A stretch of DNA of 41,341 nucleotides from Flavobacteriales bacterium. GTDB lineage: Bacteria > Bacteroidota > Bacteroidia > Flavobacteriales_D > Sanyastnellaceae. The notes beneath the pieces are model-generated. The model was not told where the DNA came from. It did not search any database and saw only the letters and a program-made list of their open reading frames with translations. Location: positions 1-41,341 of the forward strand of contig JAQWTJ010000076.1 of assembly GCA_029242765.1 (NCBI GenBank), written 5' to 3'. Positions 3,527 to 41,341 of the stretch are shown here, one piece after another (the stretch's first letter is position 1; every line of letters begins with the position of its first letter). The translations under genes and the position numbers were made by a program.

Positions 3527-5458
3527 TCACCAACGAGGTTTAGGGTCACGGCGCTTTTTCGGCCCGCGGCTTGCTGGGGCTTTGCCCTTGTAGCTGCTCT
3601 TGTTGAACCCTCCGCGTTTGGGCGGGCGGTCGTCTTTAACGCCTTTGTATCCACCGCCTTTGTACCCTCCGCTTGAAGAGCTGCCGCCAGAACGGTTATC
3701 GCCAGAACGGCTGTCGCCAGAACGTCGGTCCTCGCTTCCAAAGCTGTCCCTGAATCCGCTGCGCTTTCCGCCTCGATTGTCATCTGCGTAACGCGGACGG
3801 TTGTCGTTGTGTCGGGGGCGGTCATTGCGGCCACCGCTTTGTCGATCGTCGCGTCGGTTGTCCCGGCGGTCGTCGTTATAGCGCGGGCGGTCATTGCGGT
3901 TGTCGCTGCGGTCGTCGTTGTAGCGGGGCCGGTCATTGCGGTTGTCGCTGCGGTTGTCGCTGCGGCGGTCATCACGTCGGTTGTCCCGGCGGTCGTCGTT
4001 GTCGCGGGGGCGGTCATTGCGGTTGTCACTGCGACGGTCATTGCTGCGGTTGTCCCGGCGGTCGTCGTTGTGGCGAGGCTTGTCGTCCCGACGTCCGTCA
4101 CGACGGTCATCGCTCTTGTAGCCGCCGCCACCGCCGCCTTTGAAGCTGTCACTCTTGTAAGAGCGGCGTTTTTCTTGGCTGCGTTGACCGCGCTGGTACC
4201 CGCCGCCACCGCCACTTCCACTGCTTCGGCCGCCGCCGCCGCCGCTGCGACCTCCGCGGCCTTTCTTGCCGCCGTATCCTCCTCCGCTGCCTTTATGCAT
4301 GCCAACAGGCGGCAGGTCGAGGTGGAAATCGTGATTCGTGTCCACTTGGATTTCGCAGTCCAAAAGATGTTGGATAGCAGCGAGATACTTGCGCTCGTCC
4401 GCCTCATTGCAGAGCGATATTGCTAAGCCTTCTGCCCCGGCGCGGCCCGTGCGGCCGATGCGGTGGATGTACGTCTCGGGCTGATTTGGGAGCTCGAAAT
4501 TGATCACGTGACTCAGCGAATCCACATCAATTCCACGTGCAGCCACATCGGTGGCCACCATCACGCGAACGTTTCCTTGCTTGAAAGCGCGCATGGCGCG
4601 GTCACGTTGAGGCTGGCTCTTGTTGCCGTGAATGGCAGCAGCGCCGACTCCCGCGTGTTGAAGATGACGTACGAGCTTATCCGCGCCGTATTTCGTTCGT
4701 GTGAATACCAATGCAGAAGTCACCGACTTGTCGCTGAGCATTTCTACGAGGAGGTCTTTCTTGTCACGCTGCATAACGGACAACACCCGTTGTTCTACTG
4801 TTTCAGCGGCGGAGCTTTGACCTGCGACCTCGACTTTCACCGGGTCGGTCAAAATGTCTTTTGATAAGCTGACAATGCTTGACGGCATCGTCGCCGAGAA
4901 GAACAAACTTTGGCGCTTCTTCGGCAACATCGAGATGATTTTCTTGATGTCGTGGATGAAGCCCATATCGAGCATGGTGTCGGCTTCGTCGAGCGTGAAG
5001 TACTCTACGTCAGAGAGGTTGACGTGGCCTTGATTTGCCAAGTCCAGAAGACGCCCTGGGGTGGCCACTACGATGTCCACGCCGCGCTGCAATTGTTTGA
5101 CCTGGCGGTGTTGGGATACACCTCCAAAAATCACGCAGTGAAACAGGTGCATGTGCTTGGTGTAATCGTCGATGTTTTCGGCGATTTGCCCTGCGAGCTC
5201 GCGGGTCGGGCTCAAGATGAGGCCTTTGATACGGCGCGGGCCTTTTGAGTCGGCGGCTTTTTCGGCGATGTTGTGGATGATCGGCAAGGCAAATGCCGCC
5301 GTTTTTCCCGTGCCTGTTTGGGCGCATCCCAGGACGTCGTGCCCTTTTAAAACGAGCGGAATCGACTCTGATTGGATGGGGGTGGGCGTCGTATAGCCGA
5401 GGGGCTCAAGAGCGCGGAGGATGGGTTCGCTCAGTCCGAGCGTTTCAAATAGACTCAC
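3527..5458 (-). CDS. DEAD-box RNA helicase with long Arg/Asp/Asn/Gly-rich tail
   Basis: A DEAD-box ATP-dependent RNA helicase of 643 residues if started at GTG 5458 (V-S-L-F-E-T), or 658 from ATG 5503. The first choice matches the usual N-terminus of the family. Motifs in order: Q motif (TPTPIQ), Walker A (AQTGTGKT), PTRELAGQ, TPGRLLD, LDEAD, SAT, then the C-terminal RecA domain with HRIGRTGRAG. About 250 residues follow that are mostly R, D, N, G and S, including RGG-like and YKGGGYKG runs plus DRRDN/DNRNDRPR repeats. Such tails bind RNA and favour condensates. Likely roles are ribosome assembly, mRNA turnover or cold growth. It lies downstream of the tRNA pair on the same strand with no visible terminator between. 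Confidence 0.95.
   Translation of the reverse strand: MSLFETLGLSEPILRALEPLGYTTPTPIQSESIPLVLKGHDVLGCAQTGTGKTAAFALPIIHNIAEKAADSKGPRRIKGLILSPTRELAGQIAENIDDYTKHMHLFHCVIFGGVSQHRQVKQLQRGVDIVVATPGRLLDLANQGHVNLSDVEYFTLDEADTMLDMGFIHDIKKIISMLPKKRQSLFFSATMPSSIVSLSKDILTDPVKVEVAGQSSAAETVEQRVLSVMQRDKKDLLVEMLSDKSVTSALVFTRTKYGADKLVRHLQHAGVGAAAIHGNKSQPQRDRAMRAFKQGNVRVMVATDVAARGIDVDSLSHVINFELPNQPETYIHRIGRTGRAGAEGLAISLCNEADERKYLAAIQHLLDCEIQVDTNHDFHLDLPPVGMHKGSGGGYGGKKGRGGRSGGGGGRSSGSGGGGGYQRGQRSQEKRRSYKSDSFKGGGGGGYKSDDRRDGRRDDKPRHNDDRRDNRSNDRRSDNRNDRPRDNDDRRDNRRDDRRSDNRSDNRNDRPRYNDDRSDNRNDRPRYNDDRRDNRRDDRQSGGRNDRPRHNDNRPRYADDNRGGKRSGFRDSFGSEDRRSGDSRSGDNRSGGSSSSGGYKGGGYKGVKDDRPPKRGGFNKSSYKGKAPASRGPKKRRDPKPRW
3790..4110. 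repeat. Imperfect tandem repeat coding for the D/R/N-rich helicase tail
   Basis: Short imperfect tandem units built from CGGTTGTC, GCGGTCATTGCGG and GCGGTCGTCGTTG recur across this stretch. On the minus strand they encode repeats such as RRDNR, DRRSDNR and NDRPRYNDD. The repeats are free of stop codons in other frames too, which yields long but spurious open frames on both strands. Repeats of this type can change copy number by slippage. Confidence 0.8.
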
Positions 5459-11935: not shown

Positions 11936-12502
11936 TTATGCCACTTCGCCCGTTTCGGTGTCGACCCCAGCTGGCACTGCGGCCACCGGTTCGAGCGGGG
12001 CCACGGCGGGATGGTCGGCGAAGGCCTCGCTTCCAGCATGGCTGTCGCTGGGAATGACATTGACCGATCCTTCTTCGCTTAAAGGGTAGACCTCTGAGAT
12101 TTTAGTGTAGTTGATCGAGGGGATGACAAAGCCCACGCTCGCACTTTTCATGAACAGCATCACCTTGTCGTACGCATCGCGCAAATCGTCCGCACTGAAG
12201 AGGTAGAACTTGTTGTGGTCCTTTTCCTTGGTGCTCTTCTCATCAAAGGATGTCAATGCCACTTTGATCCTGAACCATTGTTCGCCTGTGTCAAAGCGCA
12301 CGACTTCAGTGTAATTTGATTTTGTGATCTGCTTGATGATAAAGGGGCCGGTACAAAACTCCGCAACGATGCCCACCAAACGAGCCTCAGCCTCGGTGTA
12401 AGTGTACGCGTCGAGCAGGAGCTGGTCGGTCTTTTTTTCTTCGGCACCGTCGACTCCGTTGCGGGAGTATTGGACGACACACGTGAACCAATATTTTTTC
12501 AT
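11936..12502 (-). CDS. DUF4494 domain-containing protein
   Basis: This 188-residue soluble protein begins MKKYWFTCVVQYSRNG and continues through EKKTDQLLLDAYTYTEAEARL and FIIKQITKSNYTEVV, the profile of the Bacteroidota DUF4494 family. The function is unknown. The last 45 residues are acidic, Ala/Val-rich and look unstructured. The start codon overlaps the stop of the upstream Gfo/Idh/MocA oxidoreductase (12499-12502), so the two are translationally coupled, but no known pathway joins them. Confidence 0.9.
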   Translation of the reverse strand: MKKYWFTCVVQYSRNGVDGAEEKKTDQLLLDAYTYTEAEARLVGIVAEFCTGPFIIKQITKSNYTEVVRFDTGEQWFRIKVALTSFDEKSTKEKDHNKFYLFSADDLRDAYDKVMLFMKSASVGFVIPSINYTKISEVYPLSEEGSVNVIPSDSHAGSEAFADHPAVAPLEPVAAVPAGVDTETGEVA

Positions 12503-13545
12503 GATGCAATGTGTTGAGATGAATGTTCAATGGCGGCCATCACTTGTCGAGCCACCCGCAGGGCTTGCAGCCCTTCTTCGAGCGGGACGCGGCACGGTAC
12601 GCCACCGCAAATAGCGCTGTAAAAGCCGGAAAGTTCGTCGCCGATTGCGTTGTTTGGTTTGACTTCAGGCGCGTCGATGTGCAGCCTGCGGGAAGGCCCG
12701 CCCGGCACGTCCAGGTAGAGTCCGAAGGGGTCGCGCTCCGCGCCTTCGCCCTCTGCAGGCACGTCTTCTATTTTCACCACTTGCGTGCTCTTGTTGAGCA
12801 GGTCCACCGAGACATATGCGCCTTGCTGGAACAGCCGCACTTTGCGCATGGGCGAGAGGCTGACACGCGAGGCGGTGAGATTTGCTACAGCGCCGCATTC
12901 AAATTCGAGCCGGGCGTTGGCGATGTCAGGTGTCGAACTCACCACCGCAACCCCGTGGGCTGAAACGCGGGCCACCGGCGAGCCGATTGTGTGCAAAGCC
13001 AAATCGATATCGTGGATCATTAAATCCAGCACGACCGGCACGTCCAATCCGCGCGGGTTGAACGGAGCCAGCCGGTGGGCCTCGATAAAGCGGGGTGCGC
13101 TTAAATGCGCAGCGGCTGCTTGAAATGCCGGGTTGAACCGCTCTACATGCCCCACCTGTACCACCGCTTTGCCTTCACGCTGCAAGCTCAGCAGGCGCTC
13201 GCCTTCTTCCAGCGTTGCGGTGACGGGCTTCTCAATAAAGCAGTGCAAACCGCGCCGCAAGGCCGCTTCCGTCAAACCGGCGTGTTCTGAGGTGGGGGCC
13301 ACGATATCCACGGCGTCCACAGCGCTCAACAGGTCCTCAACACGTGCAAAGCGTGCAGGCAATCGCTCTGCATCCAGGCCCTTTTCAGCAGCCCAAGTCT
13401 TCAGTTCTTCATCGGTTTCAGGCCGTGGATCGTGGTAGCCTACAAGGTGGAATTGGGATGGGAGATCAAGCAAGCAGCGCAGGTGGATTTTACCCAAATG
13501 CCCCACCCCGAAGAGTCCAATTTTCACAACACCGCCTTTCTGCAT
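12499..13545 (-). CDS. Gfo/Idh/MocA family NAD(P)-dependent oxidoreductase
   Basis: A 348-residue protein with an N-terminal Rossmann fold (KIGLFGVGHLGKIH, glycine-rich, near residues 8-21), the EKPVT nucleotide-binding segment and the C-terminal GFO_IDH_MocA fold with DLMIHDIDLAL. The family reduces or oxidises sugars, inositols or nucleotide-sugars; the substrate here is unknown. ATG 13545 is chosen because a perfect -7 octamer TACTTTTG ends 4 nt upstream, the spacing repeated at other genes in the window; GTG 13527 is the alternative. The stop overlaps the DUF4494 start. It diverges from the pcm gene. Confidence 0.9.
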   Translation of the reverse strand: MQKGGVVKIGLFGVGHLGKIHLRCLLDLPSQFHLVGYHDPRPETDEELKTWAAEKGLDAERLPARFARVEDLLSAVDAVDIVAPTSEHAGLTEAALRRGLHCFIEKPVTATLEEGERLLSLQREGKAVVQVGHVERFNPAFQAAAAHLSAPRFIEAHRLAPFNPRGLDVPVVLDLMIHDIDLALHTIGSPVARVSAHGVAVVSSTPDIANARLEFECGAVANLTASRVSLSPMRKVRLFQQGAYVSVDLLNKSTQVVKIEDVPAEGEGAERDPFGLYLDVPGGPSRRLHIDAPEVKPNNAIGDELSGFYSAICGGVPCRVPLEEGLQALRVARQVMAAIEHSSQHIAS

Positions 13546-13549
13546 TCCA

Positions 13550-13557
13550 CAAAAGTA
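13550..13557 (-). promoter_or_regulatory. -7 element abutting the oxidoreductase start
   Basis: TACTTTTG on the minus strand matches TAnnTTTG at all fixed positions and ends 4 nt before ATG 13545. No TTG lies at the expected distance upstream, so only the -7 half is supported. If active, transcription would begin at or inside the start codon. Confidence 0.5.
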
Positions 13558-13653
13558 GCGCGGCAATTTCCCATCGGCCGATTGTTCATAGCGACGTTGT
13601 TCACACGCTATCCAATCCCTTGTTGTGCGTAATTTTCGGACCCACGCGCAACC

Positions 13654-14331
13654 ATGGCCTCTATCGCAGCTCACCTTCAGGACACCTACCGTCACCGCGG
13701 GATGAGGCGAAAAATGCTCGACGGCTTGCGGCAAATGGGCATTGCCGATGAGCGGGTCTTGAGCGCCATGGACGAGGTCCCCAGACATTACTATCTCGAC
13801 GCGGCCTTTGACAAATTTGCCTATGAAAACAAGGCCTTTCAAATCGGCGCCGGCCAGACGATATCTCACCCGTATACAGTGGCGCGTCAATCTGAGCTAT
13901 TGCAGTTGCCCGAGGGCAGCAAGGTCCTGGAAATTGGCACCGGCAGTGGATTCCAATGTGCCGTGTTGTGCGCCATGGGCTACAAGGTGTACAGCATCGA
14001 GCGCCAGAAGGAACTTTATGACCGCGCAAAGCCGTTCTTGAAACAGCTGGGCTATCGCGCCGACATTTTCTACGGTGACGGGTACAAAGGGAAGCCTGTT
14101 TTCGCTCCGTTTGACGGCATTTTGGTGACCTGTGGCGCGCCCTCCATTCCAGAGGCGCTCTTAGGCCAGTTGAACATAGGCGGCCGAATAATTATCCCAA
14201 TTGATGACGCCTCCGCCGGCGAGGGCGTGCAAATCATGACGGAAGTGCGCCGGGTGGGCCAGAAGAAATTCACGCGTCAGACCCACGGGCATTTCGCATT
14301 CGTCCCGATGCTCGCCTCCCGCGTGCGCTGA
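13654..14331 (+). CDS. pcm: Protein-L-isoaspartate O-methyltransferase
   Basis: A 225-residue SAM-dependent methyltransferase that repairs isoaspartyl residues in aged proteins. Seen: DEVPRHYYLDAAFDKFAYEN, AGQTISHPYTVARQSELL (the PCMT signature) and motif I VLEIGTGSGFQCAVL near residues 90-105. Length is normal for the family. It is transcribed divergently from the oxidoreductase gene and converges with the first metzincin gene, leaving only 41 nt between stops. That gap holds a 5-bp GCCGC/GCGGC hairpin (14339-14355) without a U-run. Confidence 0.95.
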   Translation: MASIAAHLQDTYRHRGMRRKMLDGLRQMGIADERVLSAMDEVPRHYYLDAAFDKFAYENKAFQIGAGQTISHPYTVARQSELLQLPEGSKVLEIGTGSGFQCAVLCAMGYKVYSIERQKELYDRAKPFLKQLGYRADIFYGDGYKGKPVFAPFDGILVTCGAPSIPEALLGQLNIGGRIIIPIDDASAGEGVQIMTEVRRVGQKKFTRQTHGHFAFVPMLASRVR

Positions 14332-14372
14332 ACATCGCGCCGCTTCGTTTGCGGCATCATGCTGACCTGAGA

Positions 14373-16634
14373 TCAGTTGCAGTTCTCCCCGAAGTTGCCA
14401 AGCACCAACAGCACGTCTGTTACTGTGACAGTCAAATCGCCGTTGAGATCACCGGGGCAGATGTCCGGCAATGCGACGCAAGTTTCGCTGCTCTCGTCCC
14501 ATACGGTGCCTTCTCCGCACGCTGTTTCACAGGAGGCGTCGCTGTCGCAGATGCCGTCGTTGTTTTCGTCGGCGGTGCAATTTCCGCCGCATACGCCGAT
14601 GGCGTCCTCTTGGTTTCCATCGCAATCGCAGTCGCCCGCTGGTATGTCTGTACACCCACACGCATAAATGGCGCCGGGCCCACCGCAGACGCCGCAAACG
14701 TCGTCGTACATGCAGTTGCCGTCATCGGAGGTGGCGTTGGCGTTGTAGTTGCACGCCGTGTCGTCCATACAGCCGGGCACATCTGAGCCGTCTGGGCAGA
14801 GGCCGGTGAAGATCGCGTCCATCACATAGGTCACGGTCGACGAGCTCGTCCATCCATTCCATAGCCCCACCACCCAAGCGCCGCTCCCGGTGAGGGACAT
14901 GCCAGAAAGATCCACAGCGGTCGAATAGGTGCCAGCTGTTGTGACATTCCAGCCTCCGGGCCAGCTTCCGGCTGAGGTGTAGCCAGCAGAAAAGTTGTAT
15001 CCGCCCACTTCAATGCAGGCTCCGCCTGGATCGCAAAGCGTGAGGAGCATGTCCCCCGGCCAGCTCGAACCGCTTGACACATTGTCAAAGTCGAGCGTGA
15101 TGTTCAGGGTGCCCGGCGTGCCGGTGGCGGCCAGGTTGGTGAGCAAACTTTGCTCGCCCGTGAGTGTCGCCGTGACGTTGCTCACCCCGGTGCCGCCTGA
15201 AATCGTGCCGTCGGGTTCGCATTCAGCACAGGCCCCAGCGTAAATGCATCCGTCGTTGTTCTCGTCCCCTGCATTGTAGTTGCACGCGCTCTGGTCGTTG
15301 CATTGCAAGTCGGTGGTGACCGTAACCAAATCTTCACATGTGCCAATGCAAGAGGCAGCGTTGAACATGGGGATGAGGCCGTTGTCTTGGACGATTGTGT
15401 GAAATTCGAGCACCTTGCTTCCGCCTGAGACCGCATGACAATAACTCATGATCGTGCCGAGTTGGCCTTGAGGGTCGTCCGTGTAGCCCGTGTAATCACC
15501 TTCAAGCGATCCGCAATTGTCGATCGGTCCACCGGGCCAGCCGCACCAATGCGTGTGGCTCGAGCCGCAGTTGTGGCCCATCTCGTGCGCCACCACATCT
15601 AGATTCCAAGCGTACGTGGACAAGTCGTAGGAGGTCGTGCTAGAGAGGTGGCCGCTGACCCCTGTGTTGAATCCGCTGCACAGTCCAGAGAGGTACGCAA
15701 TGCCGCCTGTTCCGATGTTGTTTCGCATCGTCATGTAATGCCTCAAATCCAAGTTGTATCCGTTCAGGTCGGGGTTGGAATTCCACTCGCTGCCGAAAGC
15801 ACCGAGAATTCCTCCGCCATCATCCACAACAGAAACGTACGGATCGGGGGTCGCCCAAATGTGAATGAACCGCGCTTCAAGGGAAACCAAATCGCTGAGT
15901 TCCGTCCGGTAAATCAAGTCGACCGAGGCCAATAAAGCCAGCGCCCAGTTTATAGCCGTCAATTCAGAGTTGCCTAAAGAGCTGTACGTGTAATTGTCAA
16001 TCTCAATCCCCACCTCGACGCATTCCAAGGGCAAGATTTCATCGGCATCCCCGTCGCGGTTGTTCGTGGGGGTATACGCGTCCGCTGTTTCCTCAACCCC
16101 GCAAGAAAATGTACGGGTCTCTACGGCGTCACCCAATGTGAACAAAGCGTGCAAGCCTTGAGCGTTTCGAGGATTGATTTCGTACCCCACACCACCGATG
16201 TTCCAATAGGCGATCACGTGGTCTTCCATCAGGATGAGCGAGCCCATGCCAACATTGCCTTCCATCTCATATGTGAGCAAGGTGGGTTGAACATCATTGA
16301 TGCGGAAGCCTTCAGCATCGGTTACACCCACTTCAAAGTCGGAGGTCTGCACTTCAAATCGCTTGAATCGCAAGCTGCGCTCTCCCAGCCCTGGCAGGGG
16401 CACCGTCAAGACCAATCGGTCAGGCACTTCGGAACGTAGGGATTCAAAAGCCGACGTGTTCAGCTGAAGCCCGATTGAGTTGCCGGGCTTGACCGTGGCG
16501 ATTTGATCGCCTTTTAATTCGGTCTCAGAGAAAATTTCACCACCACCGAAGACAGATTGGGCTGTGACAAATGATAAAGGAAGGAGCATCAGGATCGCCA
16601 AGCTGGCGGCCTTTAAGGTCGGTGAAGTCTTCAT
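14373..16634 (-). CDS. Secreted metzincin (M12B-like) zinc metalloprotease with Cys-rich and dockerin-like C-terminus, paralog 1
   Basis: A 753-residue exported protease. Signal peptide 1-25 (LLPLSFVTAQ). The prodomain-like N-terminal half leads to the catalytic HEMGHNCGSSH at 350-360, a complete HExxHxxGxxH metzincin zinc site, with Met-turn IMSYCH about 40 residues later. A P-domain-like beta region follows (about 480-600), then a Cys-rich block (CMDDTACNYN...SDDGNC, CGVCGGPG, GDCDCDGN) and a C-terminal dockerin/EF-hand-like repeat (GDLNGDLTVTVTDVLLVLGNFG). No type A or B T9SS domain is visible. It is a paralog of the protein at 16786-18978, which lies upstream on the same strand; the 151-nt gap contains a TAACTTTC -7-like element at 16671-16664. 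Confidence 0.92.
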   Translation of the reverse strand: MKTSPTLKAASLAILMLLPLSFVTAQSVFGGGEIFSETELKGDQIATVKPGNSIGLQLNTSAFESLRSEVPDRLVLTVPLPGLGERSLRFKRFEVQTSDFEVGVTDAEGFRINDVQPTLLTYEMEGNVGMGSLILMEDHVIAYWNIGGVGYEINPRNAQGLHALFTLGDAVETRTFSCGVEETADAYTPTNNRDGDADEILPLECVEVGIEIDNYTYSSLGNSELTAINWALALLASVDLIYRTELSDLVSLEARFIHIWATPDPYVSVVDDGGGILGAFGSEWNSNPDLNGYNLDLRHYMTMRNNIGTGGIAYLSGLCSGFNTGVSGHLSSTTSYDLSTYAWNLDVVAHEMGHNCGSSHTHWCGWPGGPIDNCGSLEGDYTGYTDDPQGQLGTIMSYCHAVSGGSKVLEFHTIVQDNGLIPMFNAASCIGTCEDLVTVTTDLQCNDQSACNYNAGDENNDGCIYAGACAECEPDGTISGGTGVSNVTATLTGEQSLLTNLAATGTPGTLNITLDFDNVSSGSSWPGDMLLTLCDPGGACIEVGGYNFSAGYTSAGSWPGGWNVTTAGTYSTAVDLSGMSLTGSGAWVVGLWNGWTSSSTVTYVMDAIFTGLCPDGSDVPGCMDDTACNYNANATSDDGNCMYDDVCGVCGGPGAIYACGCTDIPAGDCDCDGNQEDAIGVCGGNCTADENNDGICDSDASCETACGEGTVWDESSETCVALPDICPGDLNGDLTVTVTDVLLVLGNFGENCN

Positions 16635-35388: not shown

Positions 35389-35409
35389 ATTGATTTGTAT
35401 TTTCGAGAG

Positions 35410-37071
35410 ATGCTTTCTCGACTCTCAAAGTTATCCGTCTTCCTTGTTTTGCTGGCTTTTGGGCTGCAGTTTGGTTCGGTACAACTCGCTGCACAGCCTT
35501 TGCCGCCCAATGATTTGCAGCTCGAACCGCTCAGGGCTTGGCTGAAGACCAATTGGTATGATGGACTCCACGATGACCTCGGATACAACGGGGCGAGGGT
35601 TCAGATGTACGGGTTTGTAGAGGAGAGTGGTGGCCAGATTGCGTGCGTCTACACTGGGTTTGAGCAAGCCTCGGATTACGTCACCTACCCCAACCCTATC
35701 AATGCGGAACACATTGTCCCGCAGTCGTTTTACGCTAGTGCAACACCTATGAGGAGCGACATTTGGAGCATGCGGCCCTGCCACGGGTCGGCCAACAGTG
35801 CCCGCTCGAACAGCCCCTTTGGTGAGGTTCCCGACGCTTCAGCCCAATGGTACGGAACGGACGCTTCGGGCAATTACCTCTCGCAAGGCAGCACGCCGAC
35901 CAACCCGGACGAATGGTCTGAAAAAAGTGGCGGTGTGTGGGAGCCTCGTGAGGCGCAAAAGGGCGATGTGGCCCGAGCCGTCTTCTATTTCTACACGATG
36001 TACCCCACGGAGGCCGGCCCCTTGAGCGACGTGGCCGACCCGGCCGTTTTATACCAATGGCATCTCGATGACCCCGTGGATGCCGTCGAGCTTACAAAAA
36101 ACAACCGCGTTGAAATCGCGCAAGGCAACCGCAACCCCTATCTCGACCACCCTGATTTGGTATACCGCGTGTGGTTTTGGGAGCCGCCTGCAGACGTGCC
36201 CGGTTGCATGAGCGAAGCGGCGTGCAATTTTGATGGTGAGGCCACAGTCGACGACGGCTCGTGCATCGAACTGGGAGACGCTTGCGATGACGACGATGCA
36301 AACACCTACGACGATATCCTCACCGATTGCGGTGCCGCCGAGTACGGATGTGCAGGCACACCTTACCCCGACCCGCTGCCTCCGATTGTTTGGGAGGAAC
36401 GCTTCGACAATTACGTGCTGGGGCTGGGCTGTAACGGGGCAACCGGGGCCAACACGGTTGACAATTCCTTTGATTGGGCCATCGATTGCTCATTGACTGA
36501 TTCGGTGTTGACCACCTTGCTTGCCGCACCTTTGGGCGATGTGCCATCGGCCGGTGCCGACACGGTCCTCGCCGTCAATGGAAGCGGAGCTATGATTCAA
36601 TGGCATTCAGACCCCATCAACGTGCAAGACGGTGAGGACCTCAAAGTCTCAGCGGTTTTTTCTGCCGTGGGCATCAACCCGAGTGACTACCTTGAATTTG
36701 TAGTGCTGCTCGACGGACTCGAGTTGTACCTGGGCAGCATGGCCGGCGGCCAAACGGCGCTGGTAATCGAGCCGATTGACCTGCCATCGGGGGCCTCCAG
36801 CTTGGAGCTGGTCGTGCGGATGAGCAACAGCGGAAACGGAGCCGAGCACCGCCTTGACGACATCGTGTTATACGGTGAAGTCCCCGTAGGACCGGGCGCT
36901 TGTGAGGCGGATCTCAACGGCGACGGCATGGTCGCGGTCAGCGATGTGCTCGCCTTGCTGGGGCAATTCGGGTGCACCTCAAATTGCACAGCCGACATCA
37001 GTGGAGACGGGATGGTGACCACGACCGACATGCTTGCTATCTTGGCGGCATTCGGTTCGACCTGTCCATGA
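35410..37071 (+). CDS. Secreted endonuclease I family nuclease with Cys-rich and double dockerin-like C-terminus
   Basis: 553 residues from ATG 35410, 4 nt after a TATTTTCG -7-like element. Signal peptide to about 30 (FGSVQLAAQ). The endonuclease I domain (30-260) has INAEHIVPQSFY with the metal-binding His, MRSDIWSMRPCHGSANSARSNSPFGEV, and REAQKGDVARAVFYFYTMYP. Then a CMSEAACNFD...VDDGSC module (about 263-290), a beta-sandwich (330-490), and two C-terminal dockerin/EF-hand-like repeats (DLNGDGMVAVSDVLALLGQFG and DISGDGMVTTTDMLAILAAFG). It likely degrades extracellular DNA or RNA. The stop overlaps the start of the M14 peptidase. Confidence 0.92.
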   Translation: MLSRLSKLSVFLVLLAFGLQFGSVQLAAQPLPPNDLQLEPLRAWLKTNWYDGLHDDLGYNGARVQMYGFVEESGGQIACVYTGFEQASDYVTYPNPINAEHIVPQSFYASATPMRSDIWSMRPCHGSANSARSNSPFGEVPDASAQWYGTDASGNYLSQGSTPTNPDEWSEKSGGVWEPREAQKGDVARAVFYFYTMYPTEAGPLSDVADPAVLYQWHLDDPVDAVELTKNNRVEIAQGNRNPYLDHPDLVYRVWFWEPPADVPGCMSEAACNFDGEATVDDGSCIELGDACDDDDANTYDDILTDCGAAEYGCAGTPYPDPLPPIVWEERFDNYVLGLGCNGATGANTVDNSFDWAIDCSLTDSVLTTLLAAPLGDVPSAGADTVLAVNGSGAMIQWHSDPINVQDGEDLKVSAVFSAVGINPSDYLEFVVLLDGLELYLGSMAGGQTALVIEPIDLPSGASSLELVVRMSNSGNGAEHRLDDIVLYGEVPVGPGACEADLNGDGMVAVSDVLALLGQFGCTSNCTADISGDGMVTTTDMLAILAAFGSTCP

Positions 37072-39656
37072 TTCATACATTCTTGAAGGCCACGCTGCTG
37101 CTGGTCGCTTCTCTGGCATTGGCGCCAACGCCTGCTGTTCACGCTCAACTACAAAGCCCCGCTGAATTTCTCGGCTACGAGCTTGGAGATCGTTTCACGC
37201 GCCATCACCAGGTGGTGGATTACATGGAGCATCTGGCCGCATCATCTGATCTTGCGATATGGTCGAGCTACGGCCTGACTTCGGAGCTTCGCACCCTCGG
37301 CACGCTGGTGCTTTCTACGCCTGGGAATCTCGCCCGTCTTGAGGACCTCCGTCAAGCCAACTTAGCCCGCGTTCGCACCGGACGAGCTGTCAAAGATATC
37401 GGCATCGCTGCACCAGATGACATGGCCATCGTCTGGCTCAGCTACAACGTGCATGGCAACGAGGCCGTTTGCACAGAAGCTGCTATGGCCACGGCCTACG
37501 CGCTGGCCACCGCCTCGCACCGACTTGAAAATGCGGTGGTGATTATCGACCCTTGCGTCAACCCCGATGGCCGCGACCGCTATGTGGCTTTCCAAGACCG
37601 GACCACCGGCCCTATGGAATTGGTCGATCTGAACCCCGACGGACTTGAACACAACGAGCCGTGGCCCGGGGGGCGGTCCAACCATTTCTTGTTCGATATG
37701 AACCGCGACTGGGCTTGGCAAACGCAAATCGAATCGGAGCAGCGGGTGAGCGCCTACCGTCGGTGGATGCCGCATGTCCACGTGGATTTTCACGAAATGG
37801 GGGTCAATTCGCCTTACTATTTCGCGCCCGCAGCGGAGCCTTTGCATTCGGCCATCACACCGTGGCAGCGCCGTTGCCAAGAGCACATCGGGCAGAACAA
37901 TGCGCGCTATTTCGACCAGCGCGGCGCCCTGTACTTCACGCGCGAGGTGTTTGATTTGTTTTACCCCAGCTATGGCGACACGTGGCCGATGTTCCACGGT
38001 GCAATCGGTATGACTTACGAGCAGGGCGGGTCATCCCGTGCGGGTCGCGCCATTCGCACGGATTTGGGCGAGCCGTTGACGCTCGCCTATAGGATTGAAA
38101 ACCACCTCGAGGCGGGGCTGTCCACCATCGAAGAGAGCGCCTCGCGGGCAGCGGAGCTTGTTTCCGAGTTCACCGGCTACCACGCGGCCAACCTCTCGGG
38201 TGAGCGGGCGCCTTTTGGCAGCTACCTCATCCCGGCATCCAATGACCCCGAGCGCAAGCTTTGGCTCACGGATTTGCTCGATAAGAATGGCATCGCTTAC
38301 GGCTCTGCGCCGGCAGCTTCAGGGCTGACGGGCTACGATTATTCCACGGGCCGCCGGGCCTCCAAGTTGCGTGCAACGCCTGACGACTTGATTATCGACG
38401 GTCACCAGTCCGATGCGGCCTTTCTTCACGTGTTGTTCGACCCCGACCCGGTGTTGAGTGACTCGCTCACGTACGACATCACGGCTTGGGCCGTGCCCCA
38501 CGCCTACGGCCTGAGCTGTTATGGACTGGACCAGCATTTGAGCCCCACAACGGGTGCCTCGGCCGACGGAAACCGTACTAAAGCCAGCCGCGTCTCATCG
38601 CCTGAATCAACCGGCGATCTGCCTTACGCCTGGGTCGCTCACGGTCCCACAGACGCGTCAACCCGAGCGTTGGCGGCTTTGCTCAAGGGCGGCGTCGTGG
38701 TGCGCATCGCCGACAGCGCGTTCCGTCTTGAAGGGTCGAGCTACCCCGCCGGCGCGATGGTCATCACCCGCCGCAACAATGAGGATGTCCCTCGACTCCG
38801 GTGGCTTGTTGCGGCCACGGCAGCGGCCACCGCTGTAGAATTCACGGCCGTCTCTACGGGCTTGGTTGATGCCGGTCACGACTTGGGCAGCGACCACTAC
38901 ACCGCCTTAACCGCACCCCGCATCGCCACCCTCCAAGGCCCCGGGTCCAGCTCCCTCTCTAGCGGCGAAATTTGGCATCGCTTCGACACGTATTTGGCTT
39001 ACCCGCTGACGCGCGTGGAATCGCTCGATGATCTGGATCTCGAGGATTTCGACGTGTTGATTATGCCCAGCGGATGGTACGGTTTGGATGACGAGCAGCG
39101 CGACGATTTGGCCGACTGGGTGCGCTCGGGCGGACATCTTGTGGCCATCGCCGGCGCCCTCGGCTCCTTTGCCGGAAAAAAGGGGTGGGGGCTCGACCGC
39201 CACGAGGGTTCTGATGAAGGCCGGAAAAGCGCTCCCAACGAGCACGACGCCCACGCGCTGGCCGCTTCGGGCATCGATGCTATCCCACACGCTGACCGCC
39301 GTCGCGCGCGGCTTCGACACGACTTGCCGGGCGCTGTGTACGCGGCGGCTGTCGACCCCACGCACCCGCTCGCCTTCGGCTACAATGACCGGTACTTGTC
39401 CCTAAAAACTAGCGGTTCGGCCTTCGCTCCGCTCAACTCGGGCAACGCTATGGTCCTGCATAAGGAGGGCGACCCGTTCAGCGGGCACGCGGGCTCAGAA
39501 GTGGCCTCGCGTATCGCCGGATCGCTCGTGGCCGGCGCCCATAGGATGGGGCGCGGAAGCGTCGTTTACCTCGCGGACAATCCGTTGTTTCGGGCCTTCT
39601 GGCGCAACGGCCACCGCCTCTTTGACAACGCGGTCTTCCTCGGTCCGGCCTTTTGA
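37068..39656 (+). CDS. Secreted M14 family zinc carboxypeptidase
   Basis: 862 residues from ATG 37068, overlapping the nuclease stop (ATGA). Signal peptide to about 26 (LAPTPAVHAQ). Zinc ligands appear as His129 and Glu132 in VHGNEAV and probably His242 in DFHEMG, with the catalytic Glu near 318 in TYEQGGSSRAGR and substrate-binding NPDGRDRY. A C-terminal region (about 650-710, FDVLIMPSGWYGL...WVRSGGHLVAIAG) resembles a glutamine-amidotransferase-like fold often seen in this Bacteroidota subgroup. No T9SS domain is visible, so it may be periplasmic. It trims C-terminal residues from peptides, matching the protease genes nearby. Confidence 0.92.
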   Translation: MIHTFLKATLLLVASLALAPTPAVHAQLQSPAEFLGYELGDRFTRHHQVVDYMEHLAASSDLAIWSSYGLTSELRTLGTLVLSTPGNLARLEDLRQANLARVRTGRAVKDIGIAAPDDMAIVWLSYNVHGNEAVCTEAAMATAYALATASHRLENAVVIIDPCVNPDGRDRYVAFQDRTTGPMELVDLNPDGLEHNEPWPGGRSNHFLFDMNRDWAWQTQIESEQRVSAYRRWMPHVHVDFHEMGVNSPYYFAPAAEPLHSAITPWQRRCQEHIGQNNARYFDQRGALYFTREVFDLFYPSYGDTWPMFHGAIGMTYEQGGSSRAGRAIRTDLGEPLTLAYRIENHLEAGLSTIEESASRAAELVSEFTGYHAANLSGERAPFGSYLIPASNDPERKLWLTDLLDKNGIAYGSAPAASGLTGYDYSTGRRASKLRATPDDLIIDGHQSDAAFLHVLFDPDPVLSDSLTYDITAWAVPHAYGLSCYGLDQHLSPTTGASADGNRTKASRVSSPESTGDLPYAWVAHGPTDASTRALAALLKGGVVVRIADSAFRLEGSSYPAGAMVITRRNNEDVPRLRWLVAATAAATAVEFTAVSTGLVDAGHDLGSDHYTALTAPRIATLQGPGSSSLSSGEIWHRFDTYLAYPLTRVESLDDLDLEDFDVLIMPSGWYGLDDEQRDDLADWVRSGGHLVAIAGALGSFAGKKGWGLDRHEGSDEGRKSAPNEHDAHALAASGIDAIPHADRRRARLRHDLPGAVYAAAVDPTHPLAFGYNDRYLSLKTSGSAFAPLNSGNAMVLHKEGDPFSGHAGSEVASRIAGSLVAGAHRMGRGSVVYLADNPLFRAFWRNGHRLFDNAVFLGPAF

Positions 39657-39684: not shown

Positions 39685-39700
39685 TGAGGCTTTCGCCTCA
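39685..39700 (-). other. Stable hairpin at the end of the YbjN-like gene
   Basis: On the minus strand TGAGGC-GAAA-GCCTCA forms a 6-bp stem with a GNRA tetraloop. Its first TGA is the stop codon of the YbjN-like gene. It sits between two converging genes and may protect or end the transcript, but no U-run follows. Confidence 0.4.
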
Positions 39701-40240
39701 GTACACGTCTACATTGGGCAGCAGGCCCGTGCCTTCGAATTCCTTCTCCATAAAGTCGCCTACAATGGCCACCGCTTCGACGTACTCGAGCAAGATGTCG
39801 AGGTCGATGTCAGCCAGTGCTTTGATGGTGTACAAGTAGGCCCGTATGCCGTCCTTCTCGAGGATGCTCCACGCGCCAATTTTTGTCGTCTCGTTCATCA
39901 GCAGGAGGCCCTCCGCATTGGGCTCCTTTATCCCCAACGAATCGGGCTGTGTCATCCAGGCAATGCTGTAAACGTCCCGCACAGCAATCGTTCCAAACAC
40001 GCTTTCCCCTAGCATTATCCAGGCCAATTGCGTCCGCCCTTGACCGATCACGACTTCAATTTTCAAGTCCCCGTCCCCATCGACTTCAAAAGCATAGCCG
40101 GCCTTTTCCAGAGCTTTGGACACCTTCTTCATGTACTTGGTCTGCACCGGTTCCGGGCTTTGTGCCTGCACCGTGCTGATTCCTGCGATGAGCATCACGG
40201 ACAGCAGCGCCGTGGCCGCTCCATTGAAAATAGTCTTCAT
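39698..40240 (-). CDS. Secreted YbjN-like protein
   Basis: 180 residues. Signal peptide 1 to about 27 (LLSVMLIAGISTVQAQ). The mature chain (KYMKKVSKALEKAGYAFEVDGDGDLKIEVVIGQGRTQLAWIML...NETTKIGAWSILEKDGIRAYLYTIKALADIDLDILLEYVEAVAIVGDFMEKEF) follows the YbjN/type III chaperone-like fold pattern: a helix, a sheet, then a helix. YbjN relatives are usually cytoplasmic; an exported one is notable. The function is unknown. It is divergent from the repeat-flanked lipoprotein gene. Confidence 0.7.
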   Translation of the reverse strand: MKTIFNGAATALLSVMLIAGISTVQAQSPEPVQTKYMKKVSKALEKAGYAFEVDGDGDLKIEVVIGQGRTQLAWIMLGESVFGTIAVRDVYSIAWMTQPDSLGIKEPNAEGLLLMNETTKIGAWSILEKDGIRAYLYTIKALADIDLDILLEYVEAVAIVGDFMEKEFEGTGLLPNVDVY

Positions 40241-40283: not shown

Positions 40284-40341
40284 GGAATCTAGAGGTTCCA
40301 ATGTTGACGGTGGAGGACAAGCTGACTCTAGTTTAAATTGG
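40284..40341 (+). repeat. Right-end repeat, copy 1 (upstream of the FISUMP lipoprotein)
   Basis: 58 bp starting GGAATCTAGAGGTTCC. About 33 of its first 39 bases match copy 2 at 41080, and both end CTAGTTT...ATTGG. It contains the inverted pair CTAGAG/CTCTAG. It lies 67 nt before the next start codon. Confidence 0.85.
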
Positions 40342-40372
40342 GGCATTAAACCAGGGTGTTTTGTTTAACAGA

Positions 40373-40399
40373 TTTGCAGCGCCTGCCCGAATAGTTTTG
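40373..40399 (+). promoter_or_regulatory. Possible promoter for the FISUMP lipoprotein
   Basis: A perfect -7 octamer TAGTTTTG (40392-40399) lies 9 nt before ATG 40409. A TTTG at 40373-40376 is 15 nt upstream, shorter than the spacing at the clear promoters, so the -33 half is uncertain. Confidence 0.45.
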
Positions 40400-40408
40400 A
40401 TTTACGAA

Positions 40409-41050
40409 ATGAAGGACTTTTTTTACATATCAATTGCATCTATTCTCTTAGTGAGTACTTACTCATGCGATAAGATAGAGGGCTGTATGGATAATTCTGC
40501 GTGCAATTACAATGAACAAGCAACAAGTGATGATGGTTCTTGTGAGTTTCCTCAGCCAGAATATGATTGCAACGGCATTTTGCTGATAGAGCCATATATT
40601 GGAATGGAAGCTTTGGGGGGCATCGTCTTCTATATTGATAACACAGGCCAAAACGGCTTGGTTGCGGCTTTTGAAGATTTGTCAGGAACGTATGAATGGG
40701 GATGTCTTGGATTGGAGGTGGGGAATTTCAGTACAGGTTTAGAAAACACAATCAATATAATTGATCAGGGCTGCCTCCCCGAGTCCGGTGGCGTTATCGC
40801 AGCACAAGCTTGTTTTGATTTCACGTATGGCCTTTATGATGATTGGTATTTACCTAGTAATGGTGAGTTGCAATTGTTGAATGGCGCAAATGATGCCGCT
40901 ATCGTAGCTATGGCTGATTATTATTACTGGTCTTCTTCGGAGGCAAGTGCCAATAATTCGAAGTGTATTCACTTTGGAATGGGAGGAGGTGAAATGTATA
41001 GTCATATTAAATCTTCCACTTATTCAGTTCGCCCCATTCGTTCCTTCTAA
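40409..41050 (+). CDS. FISUMP/DUF1566-like lipoprotein, AT-rich
   Basis: 213 residues from ATG 40409. Type II signal with the lipidated Cys at 20 (LLVSTYSC). One Cys-rich CMDNSACNYN...SDDGSC module (about 25-48) stands between the anchor and a FISUMP/Lcl_C-type domain: GGIVFYIDNTGQNGLVAAFEDL, DDWYLPSNGELQLL, YYYWSSSEAS and a final YSVRPIRSF. The domain is common in Bacteroidota surface lipoproteins, with unknown ligands. Sample lines count about 38-50% GC, well below neighbouring genes, and the gene sits between two repeat copies, suggesting recent arrival. The ATG at 40361 would break the lipoprotein signal. Confidence 0.85.
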   Translation: MKDFFYISIASILLVSTYSCDKIEGCMDNSACNYNEQATSDDGSCEFPQPEYDCNGILLIEPYIGMEALGGIVFYIDNTGQNGLVAAFEDLSGTYEWGCLGLEVGNFSTGLENTINIIDQGCLPESGGVIAAQACFDFTYGLYDDWYLPSNGELQLLNGANDAAIVAMADYYYWSSSEASANNSKCIHFGMGGGEMYSHIKSSTYSVRPIRSF

Positions 41051-41079
41051 TTCCTTGGTGTAGTCCCTCGGCTATCTCA

Positions 41080-41133
41080 GGAATCTAGAGGTGCCGATGT
41101 TATCGGTGGAGGATATGCCTAGTTTGTAATTGG
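41080..41133 (+). repeat. Right-end repeat, copy 2 (upstream of the truncated secreted gene)
   Basis: 54 bp starting GGAATCTAGAGGTGCC, homologous to copy 1 with six substitutions in 39 bases and a small deletion near the end. It includes CCGAT-GTT-ATCGG, a perfect 5-bp hairpin not conserved in copy 1. It lies 35 nt before the next start codon. Confidence 0.85.
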
Positions 41134-41168
41134 TAGGACTCATAACGCCTTTCGTCGTATATTTAGGC

Positions 41169-41341
41169 ATGAACCGAATTGTCCTACTTGCTTGGGCTGC
41201 ATTCTTTTGCGCCTTCAACACCTCTGCTCAAGACGACAGTTGCACCCTCCTCAGTGTATATGAACTGATTGAAAACATGCAGCTGCAGCTCGATGCGCAG
41301 CAAGAAACGATCGAGGCACAACAAGAAACGATCGATGCCTT
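41169..41341 (+). CDS. Secreted protein with coiled-coil N-terminus, cut by the window edge
   Basis: Only 57 codons are present. ATG 41169 follows a TATATTTA -7-like element by 3 nt. A signal peptide (MNRIVLLAWAAFFCAFNTSAQ) is followed by DDSCTLLSVYELIENMQLQLDA and heptad-like copies of QQETIEA/QQETIDA, which suggests a coiled coil. The rest lies outside. By its position after a repeat copy it may belong with the FISUMP lipoprotein upstream. Confidence 0.75.
   Translation, partial: MNRIVLLAWAAFFCAFNTSAQDDSCTLLSVYELIENMQLQLDAQQETIEAQQETIDA

Follow-up and report, generated by a model that had tools for sequence, protein, structure and literature searches.

A probable integrase-less fragment of an integron-like array in a Flavobacteriales bacterium, with the 3' end of a tyrosine-integrase gene as its putative attachment site

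The stretch of DNA analysed here (41,341 nucleotides, hereafter the window) probably carries, close to its right end, a short piece of an integron-like array that lacks its integrase gene and in which the attachment site would be the 3' end of a tyrosine-integrase gene. By its sequence, the repeat that marks this piece corresponds to the final 60-80 bp of a gene of this kind. Many marine Flavobacteriales have rows of the same predicted site, most of them equally oriented, which separate small unrelated genes and lie close to intact integrase genes.

The window spans contig C27 from end to end, in a genome assembly of 110 contigs (2,223,486 bases, 96.97% complete). A gapped alignment paired two repeats of 58 and 54 bp (40284-40341 and 41080-41133) with a local score of 57, while 500 letter shuffles reached 27 at most. 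Their ungapped core of 39 bp is 85% identical, and with 3 mismatches allowed the core pattern matched twice in the window against 0.01 matches expected. A first-pass annotation had noticed two repeats in the same orientation, each shortly before a secreted-type gene, and the alignment together with the start codons ATG 40409 and ATG 41169 bears this out. It had also remarked on the low GC of the gene between the repeats, which is indeed 41% as compared with 57% for the whole window. The position that it gave as the right edge holds as well, the edge being that of the contig. The features are listed below.

37101..39656, plus strand: M14 peptidase gene (Pfam M14), the conserved flank used for finding the locus in relatives
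39698..40240, minus strand: left neighbour of the array, a 180-aa secreted-type protein with no Pfam match, for which no cassette status is claimed
40284..40341, plus strand: putative site copy 1, a decayed copy of the integrase gene 3' end, reading RNLEVPMLTVEDKLTLV-stop
40342..41133, plus strand: predicted cassette 1 (792 bp), consisting of cargo and a site at the cargo 3' end, delimited by the two copies by analogy with arrays elsewhere
40409..41050, plus strand: predicted cargo of cassette 1, a 213-aa lipoprotein-like protein with an Lcl_C-type C-terminal domain (start ATG 40409, GC 41%)
41054..41133, plus strand: putative site copy 2, a copy of the integrase gene 3' end, reading SLGYLRNLEVPMLSVEDMPSL-stop
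41169..41341, plus strand: predicted cargo of cassette 2, truncated by the contig end, with a secreted-type start (ATG 41169) followed by QQETI repeats

The cargo gene at 40409..41050 gave an Lcl_C match in Pfam of 32.9 bits (E 8.7e-8), which does not reach the curated cut-off of 34.9, and the STYSCDK motif near its start is one that we take to be lipobox-like. The frame at 41130-41339, which holds the cargo of cassette 2, had no match in the Pfam search. A 21-nt tandem repeat (encoding QQETI) lies at 41290-41331 within this last gene, at the extreme end of the contig; this repeat, rather than the array, may be what stopped the assembly. On the other side, an Endonuclease I-like secreted gene (35395-37071) immediately precedes the M14 peptidase gene. 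Rfam gave no match at the window repeats, and at E up to 5 it returned a single chance match elsewhere. When the full-length integrase profile was run over the window, no integrase was found and the sole match was copy 2. The earlier remark that no integrase is visible thus stands for the window; an integrase does belong to the system, outside contig C27.

The repeat was traced by a profile built from the two window copies and a third, partial copy in the source genome, which was searched over 114 genomes of the family. Tight DNA patterns of the repeat had no match in GTDB contigs (84,980 species), viral contigs or the 113 other family genomes, and the three-copy profile alone reached integrase genes. 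Its best foreign match (E 7.4e-4 over the 114 genomes) was in genome G079, where the repeat is the end of a 364-codon open frame with a phage-integrase domain. The C-terminus of that integrase reads SLGYLRNLEVPMLKVEDMPMFES, to be compared with the SLGYLRNLEVPMLSVEDMPSL-stop of copy 2. Up to E 1 this profile matched in 86 of 114 genomes, mostly near chance level; two of the matches inspected, at loci L153 and L154, fall within the frames of other genes. A separate oddity was seen at L151 (205-534 in G077:C59), where a 109-aa ORF before the site fuses stretches resembling the EF-Ts N-terminus and DUF1737.

The reverse search, with the integrase against the whole source genome, matched 41049-41123 (E 1.7e-5). 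At the DNA level the end of the G079 integrase gene aligned with copy 2 over 41054-41131 at a score of 82 and with copy 1 at a score of 41, while 300 shuffles of each gave no more than 27. A tail profile was then built from 75 integrases, none of them from the source genome. Among 1519 six-frame segments of the window the top rank went to copy 2 (E 6.6e-9) and the next to copy 1 (E 0.036), with the third segment at E 5.1; genome-wide the profile found copy 2 (E 9.6e-10) and missed copy 1 at the limit of E 0.01. The decayed state of copy 1, with its tail-profile E of 0.036, is counted against the preferred reading.

Related integrases were collected from two sources. The integrase search of 399 genomes of the order gave matches in 75, many of which comprised the last 25-80 residues only. 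A scan of GTDB contigs yielded 154 integrase relatives, from which 79 loci were kept; their titles are mostly those of marine Flavobacteriales, with Polaribacter frequent, while some (Euryarchaeota SP189, for instance) probably reflect misnaming. In 76 of the 79 loci the 3' end could be read with its stop, and 66 of these qualified for a tile test, which needed a match of at least 900 bp before the stop and at least 400 bp of downstream DNA. The last 1020 bp of each integrase gene were cut into 17 tiles of 60 bp and searched for in 427,722 bp of downstream sequence. On the same strand downstream, 27 of the 66 loci contained the last tile again, 47 times in all. As for the other tiles, tile 1 recurred eight times, tile 2 three times and tile 16 once, and tiles 3-15 never. 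The opposite strand downstream gave 7 matches of the last tile in 3 loci, which is counted against the preferred reading. Upstream on the same strand, the last tile matched 15 times in 7 loci and the other tiles once or twice each. The 39 of 66 integrase loci that had no downstream same-strand copy at the threshold used are counted against the preferred reading.

The edges of the copies were measured on 69 copies in 33 loci, after merging matches less than 30 bp apart. Identity to the locus's own integrase end was 0.90 at bases -18 to -13 from the stop end and 0.70 at -6 to -1, and it fell to 0.36 in the six bases past the stop. So the right edge of the site is sharp and the left one declines gradually. 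A DNA profile derived from the array sites of these same loci marked 127 sites, integrase ends counted, in 66 of the 79 loci, with at least 3 sites in 13 loci. Locus L270 lay outside the tile, edge and interval counts (its stop is near the frame end) and was read separately; near 1000-1084 it has an in-frame stop close to the integrase end, in a six-site array, which is either a sequencing error or real.

Within the site, the right half is the most constant part and reads GAAGAAGATATGCCTATGGTTTA in most Flavobacteriaceae-type copies. Among the left halves, some resemble the integrase gene and others belong to different classes, L267 and L292 having CAATTTACAATAATTTTAAAAG, for instance. Sites that match the integrase end in the right half only are counted against the preferred reading, as is the fact that no crossover point was located within the site. 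Some left halves that are not integrase-like are shared between genomes, namely those of L252 and L301 (CAATATACAAATTA...) and those of L267 and L292 (CAATTTACAATAATTTTAAAAG); in 8 of 8 occurrences among the 79 loci, judged by eye, such a left half precedes the right half or a decayed one. Folding of 67 array sites gave mean z values of -0.01 (top strand) and -0.03 (bottom strand) against 40 letter shuffles each, the two remaining copies of the 69 being omitted as they lie at contig ends. The six folds of the window copies had z values from -1.78 to 0.24, not convincingly above the shuffles, and a search by eye for inverted arms of the site gave no clear result.

As judged by their sequence, many of these loci are arrays. 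L300 has an integrase gene and six copies in tandem, L270 an integrase gene and five, and L296 an integrase gene and six; the arrays at G105:C30 (five sites) and G103:C5 (four) are integrase-poor. L270 (isolate AH-660-K13) and L296 (AG-914-G02) are array genomes with names of the single-cell type, an origin deduced from the names alone, and the presence of arrays in such genomes makes it unlikely that they are only chimeras of metagenome assembly. There were 58 site-to-site intervals, that of the window included, with a median of 792 bp and a range of 52-3307 bp; the set comprises intervals of up to 3500 bp that contain no integrase. They hold no ORF, one ORF or a few, and multi-gene intervals occur in L296 and L279.

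Among cargo ORFs of at least 40 aa, 27 run along the site direction and 43 against it, which makes a common promoter unlikely and is counted against the preferred reading. A crude signal- or lipobox-like start was present in 29 of the 47 cargo ORFs of at least 90 aa (those of the window included), a proportion given with no background count. Among the cargo outside the window are also UmuDC-like, XRE-like, acetyltransferase-like and SDR-like genes; these names were assigned by eye on the translations, not by family search. The first-pass annotation had pictured an array or recombination hot spot that swaps surface lipoproteins, and such cargo does not agree with a specialisation of that kind. 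Its broader claim, a cassette array that is no standard integron, fared better: by comparison, the repeat appears to be a cassette boundary in many marine Flavobacteriales. The first cassette of L269 encodes a relative of the window lipoprotein, in the opposite direction (46% identity over residues 1-154, E 2e-33). At L267, the cassette at 12770-14592 carries a UmuD/UmuC-like gene pair, also named by eye. L292 has five copies at 12019-16222 that are opposite to the integrase of their own locus and are perhaps a separate array.

Cassettes appear to keep their site-to-site extent and to occur in changed order between genomes. In L253 the order is integrase-X-Y and in L259 integrase-Y-Z-X, the two being different Polaribacter species by title; X is 91% and Y 89% identical, and Y matches from site to site. 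Between L245, where it is the second unit, and L270, where it is the third, unit B is 93-94% identical. The first part of unit A (about 260 bp, 83% identical) stands behind the integrase gene in L245 and behind another unit in L250. In seven loci (L246, L252, L254, L263, L273, L296 and L301) sites also precede the integrase gene, and in three of them (L263, L296 and L301) they do so at less than 1 kb. With sites on both sides, the integrase gene can thus sit in an array like a cassette.

The enzyme itself was characterised by profile, motif and fold. The integrase P0001 contains the catalytic domain PF00589 (40.4 bits, cut-off 27.1), the only domain that Pfam reported in it, Phage_integr_3 being absent. 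Tyrosine recombinases share the catalytic motif R, K, R, H, Y. R222, K250, R313 and H336 are invariant in the 8 integrases compared, and the nucleophile Y345 is present in 7 of them; the usual first His of the motif is Tyr310 in all 8. The exception is the gene at L201 (5027-6079, genome G057), in which the catalytic Tyr is replaced by Asn and the tail is retained; this G057 integrase is perhaps inactive. The IntI profile TIGR02249 (cut-off 265 bits) matched 6 of the 8 integrases at all, at best with 26.9 bits (E 2.9e-6). None of the 114 family genomes exceeded the IntI cut-off; sub-threshold matches occurred in 109 of the 114 and in 14 of 14 controls, as for general tyrosine recombinases. By profile, the integrase is lambda-like rather than IntI-like. 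On the IntI-specific insertion in the catalytic domain the low TIGR02249 scores bear only indirectly. A structural model (pLDDT 85, pTM 0.52) shows N-terminal strands (16-38), a helical domain and a catalytic domain. Lambda-type integrases have an N-terminal arm-binding domain ahead of the core-binding and catalytic ones. The model aligned with lambda integrase 1z1g over residues 15-340 (Z 14.3, rmsd 16.0), the part before residue 83 being barely tested, and with IntI4 2a3v over residues 89-338 (234 aligned, Z 13.5, rmsd 8.0). As the two comparisons lie within 1 Z of each other, the fold does not separate lambda-like from integron-like enzymes. Relatives of the integrase were not found in phage records, none in viral contigs was confirmed by tblastn, and plasmids gave 2 weak partial matches only.

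Apart from the copies themselves, the integrase search found no integrase in the source genome; this, and the presence of just two copies before the window ends, are counted against the preferred reading. The whole-genome search for the repeat that the first-pass annotation had proposed brought up the third, partial copy at C30:4379-4403 (17.1 bits, E 0.0147 with the two-copy profile), so the repeat is not restricted to two copies. This partial site lies between an MsrB-like gene and another secreted-type gene downstream, both named by eye. Taken over 4379-4408, the lone site of the source genome (G000; L100, L163) reads MNRLLAFVASFILLVPASAQDDC. A further match with 3 mismatches, on C96, falls inside a 714-codon frame and looks like chance. 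In the same genus, G088 has an integrase relative (E 7.6e-62 over residues 17-265).

Across the 17 genomes of the genus, the tail profile matched the source genome only, through copy 2, at E 0.01; in the family, 28 of 114 genomes had a match. The M14 gene is present in 16 of the 17, the source genome included, and in the 15 others different genes stand behind it (up to 8 ORFs viewed in each). In G085, G086, G092 and G094 the contig ends less than 0.8 kb past the M14 gene. The left neighbour (39698..40240) was matched in its own genome only among the 17. The 400-base contig end behind the M14 gene of G094 contains, on the other strand, a weak relative of the start of the left neighbour (33% over 41 aa, E 5e-5 with the 400 bases as subject). 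The first-pass annotation had named a repeat confined to two copies, with invariant gene content among relatives, as what would speak against a mobile array; the third partial copy, and the lack of any tail-profile match in the 16 other genus genomes (15 with the M14 gene), show a different picture. The window array is likely a recent insertion or a remnant, as the tail match is confined to the source genome, the M14 gene has other genes behind it in relatives and there is no integrase here.

These observations are consistent with the following scheme. A cassette would consist of cargo and a site at the cargo 3' end, and the integrase would join two double-stranded sites in their right halves. 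A cassette could then enter or leave behind the integrase gene harmlessly, because the incoming site would restore the last codons and the stop. Gene-less arrays such as that of the window might be left behind, or seeded by an integrase acting in trans. The window array itself would have been built or left by an integrase that is now absent, and its lipoprotein gene would have arrived as a cassette, which fits the low GC of that gene.

The main competitor of this scheme is tandem accretion, where phage- or ICE-like elements with attP in the int 3' end stacked up at a resident integrase gene and decayed to gene-sized remnants between att scars, with no cassette system involved. A lambda-like rather than IntI-like enzyme by profile, multi-gene intervals (L296, L279) and the absence of a further site in the available DNA of 39 of 66 integrase genes would all suit accretion. 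However, the intervals are mostly the size of a gene (58 intervals, median 792 bp), and entire units reappear in another order at 89-94% identity, which decay would not produce; besides, phage records hold no relative of the enzyme, tblastn confirmed none in viral contigs and plasmids gave the 2 weak partial matches. Hence we consider accretion unlikely. It is more doubtful still that the repeat is a shared regulatory element, i.e. a conserved promoter, operator or leader before secreted-protein genes. In the source genome each of the three copies does precede a secreted-type gene of the same direction, but the repeat is coding sequence from the end of an integrase gene, and elsewhere it occurs before and behind genes of either direction. 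This reading was dropped once the repeat proved to be an integrase gene end.

Small genes with repeated sites in one direction, as well as attC sites reported in a Polaribacter phage (PMC9892861), could bring to mind a CALIN, a classical attC-type integron array that has no integrase. The IntI cut-off was exceeded in 0 of 114 family genomes, though, the integrases of the system reach 26.9 of 265 bits at best, and folding of the sites is no better than that of shuffles (mean z -0.01 and -0.03, n = 67; -1.78 to 0.24 in the window). On the profile and folding tests the integron reading was rejected, and we give it hardly any weight. An origin of the copies by chance or misassembly, or as a meaningless local duplication, is just as improbable. 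They do stand at a contig end of a metagenome-type assembly, but the two copies differ from one another, both match integrase ends of other genomes, and arrays occur in independent assemblies, some with single-cell-type names.

What the comparison favours over these alternatives, an integrase-less piece of an integron-like array, can be set beside known systems. Integrons are the standard example of a system that stores mobile genes. Like integrons and CALIN, the present loci have tandem small cassettes ending in sites, an adjacent tyrosine recombinase gene, gene-less pieces and changed order. The cassettes are mostly of a single ORF with equally oriented sites, as in integron arrays, and cassette mobility is seen by comparison of loci only (L253/L259 and L245/L270). 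Unlike in integrons, the integrase scores far below the IntI cut-off, and the site is unfolded and equals the 3' end of the integrase gene itself. Moreover, the integrase gene points into the array, sites lie on both sides of it in 7 loci, and cargo runs in both directions. So the system works like an integron, yet it departs from one in two defining respects, the integrase family and the folded site.

Archaeal 'suicidal' integrases of the SSV1, pTN3 and pT26-2 type also have the attachment site inside their own gene; according to a review, integration splits and inactivates that gene, and such enzymes are exclusive to archaea (PMC8371274). The site here likewise lies within the integrase gene, but at its extreme 3' end, where the gene stays whole, with copies downstream in 27 of 66 loci, and P0001 matches PF00589, not Phage_integr_3. 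The pdif (Xer/dif) modules of Acinetobacter plasmids are described as gene-sized and bounded by tyrosine recombinase sites (PMC6449649). Gene-sized units between putative tyrosine recombinase sites are found here too; whereas pdif modules use host Xer and dif-like sites, the present site is homologous to a dedicated integrase gene. Tandem accretion of the CIME/ICE type leaves every unit bordered by a direct repeat of some gene's 3' end. Direct 3'-end repeats bound the units here as well, but these are mostly of single-gene size, and it is the integrase gene that supplies the repeated end.

Beyond the window, a cassette platform of its own kind may be widespread in marine Flavobacteriales, independent of integrons. 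Its integrase, of lambda type, would have the end of its own gene as the site, with each cassette re-supplying the last codons and stop, the integrase gene itself being a cassette and recombination proceeding between double-stranded sites. We put this general reading slightly above even chances, and there is a fair chance that the system deserves a class of its own. A search confined to open-licence PMC papers brought up no description of such a system. A large survey names few complete integrons in the Bacteroidetes/Chlorobi group (PMC9024848).

If the own-kind platform is real, gene-less arrays like that of the window would be the counterpart of CALIN. The finding would also imply that arrays of this type should escape tools seeking IntI and attC, and that a general search rule could be followed, namely to search genomes for further copies of the 3' end of each integrase gene. 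If true, it would represent a second route to cassette arrays, in abundant marine Bacteroidetes, and would help to explain how these bacteria gain and lose small secreted and membrane proteins.
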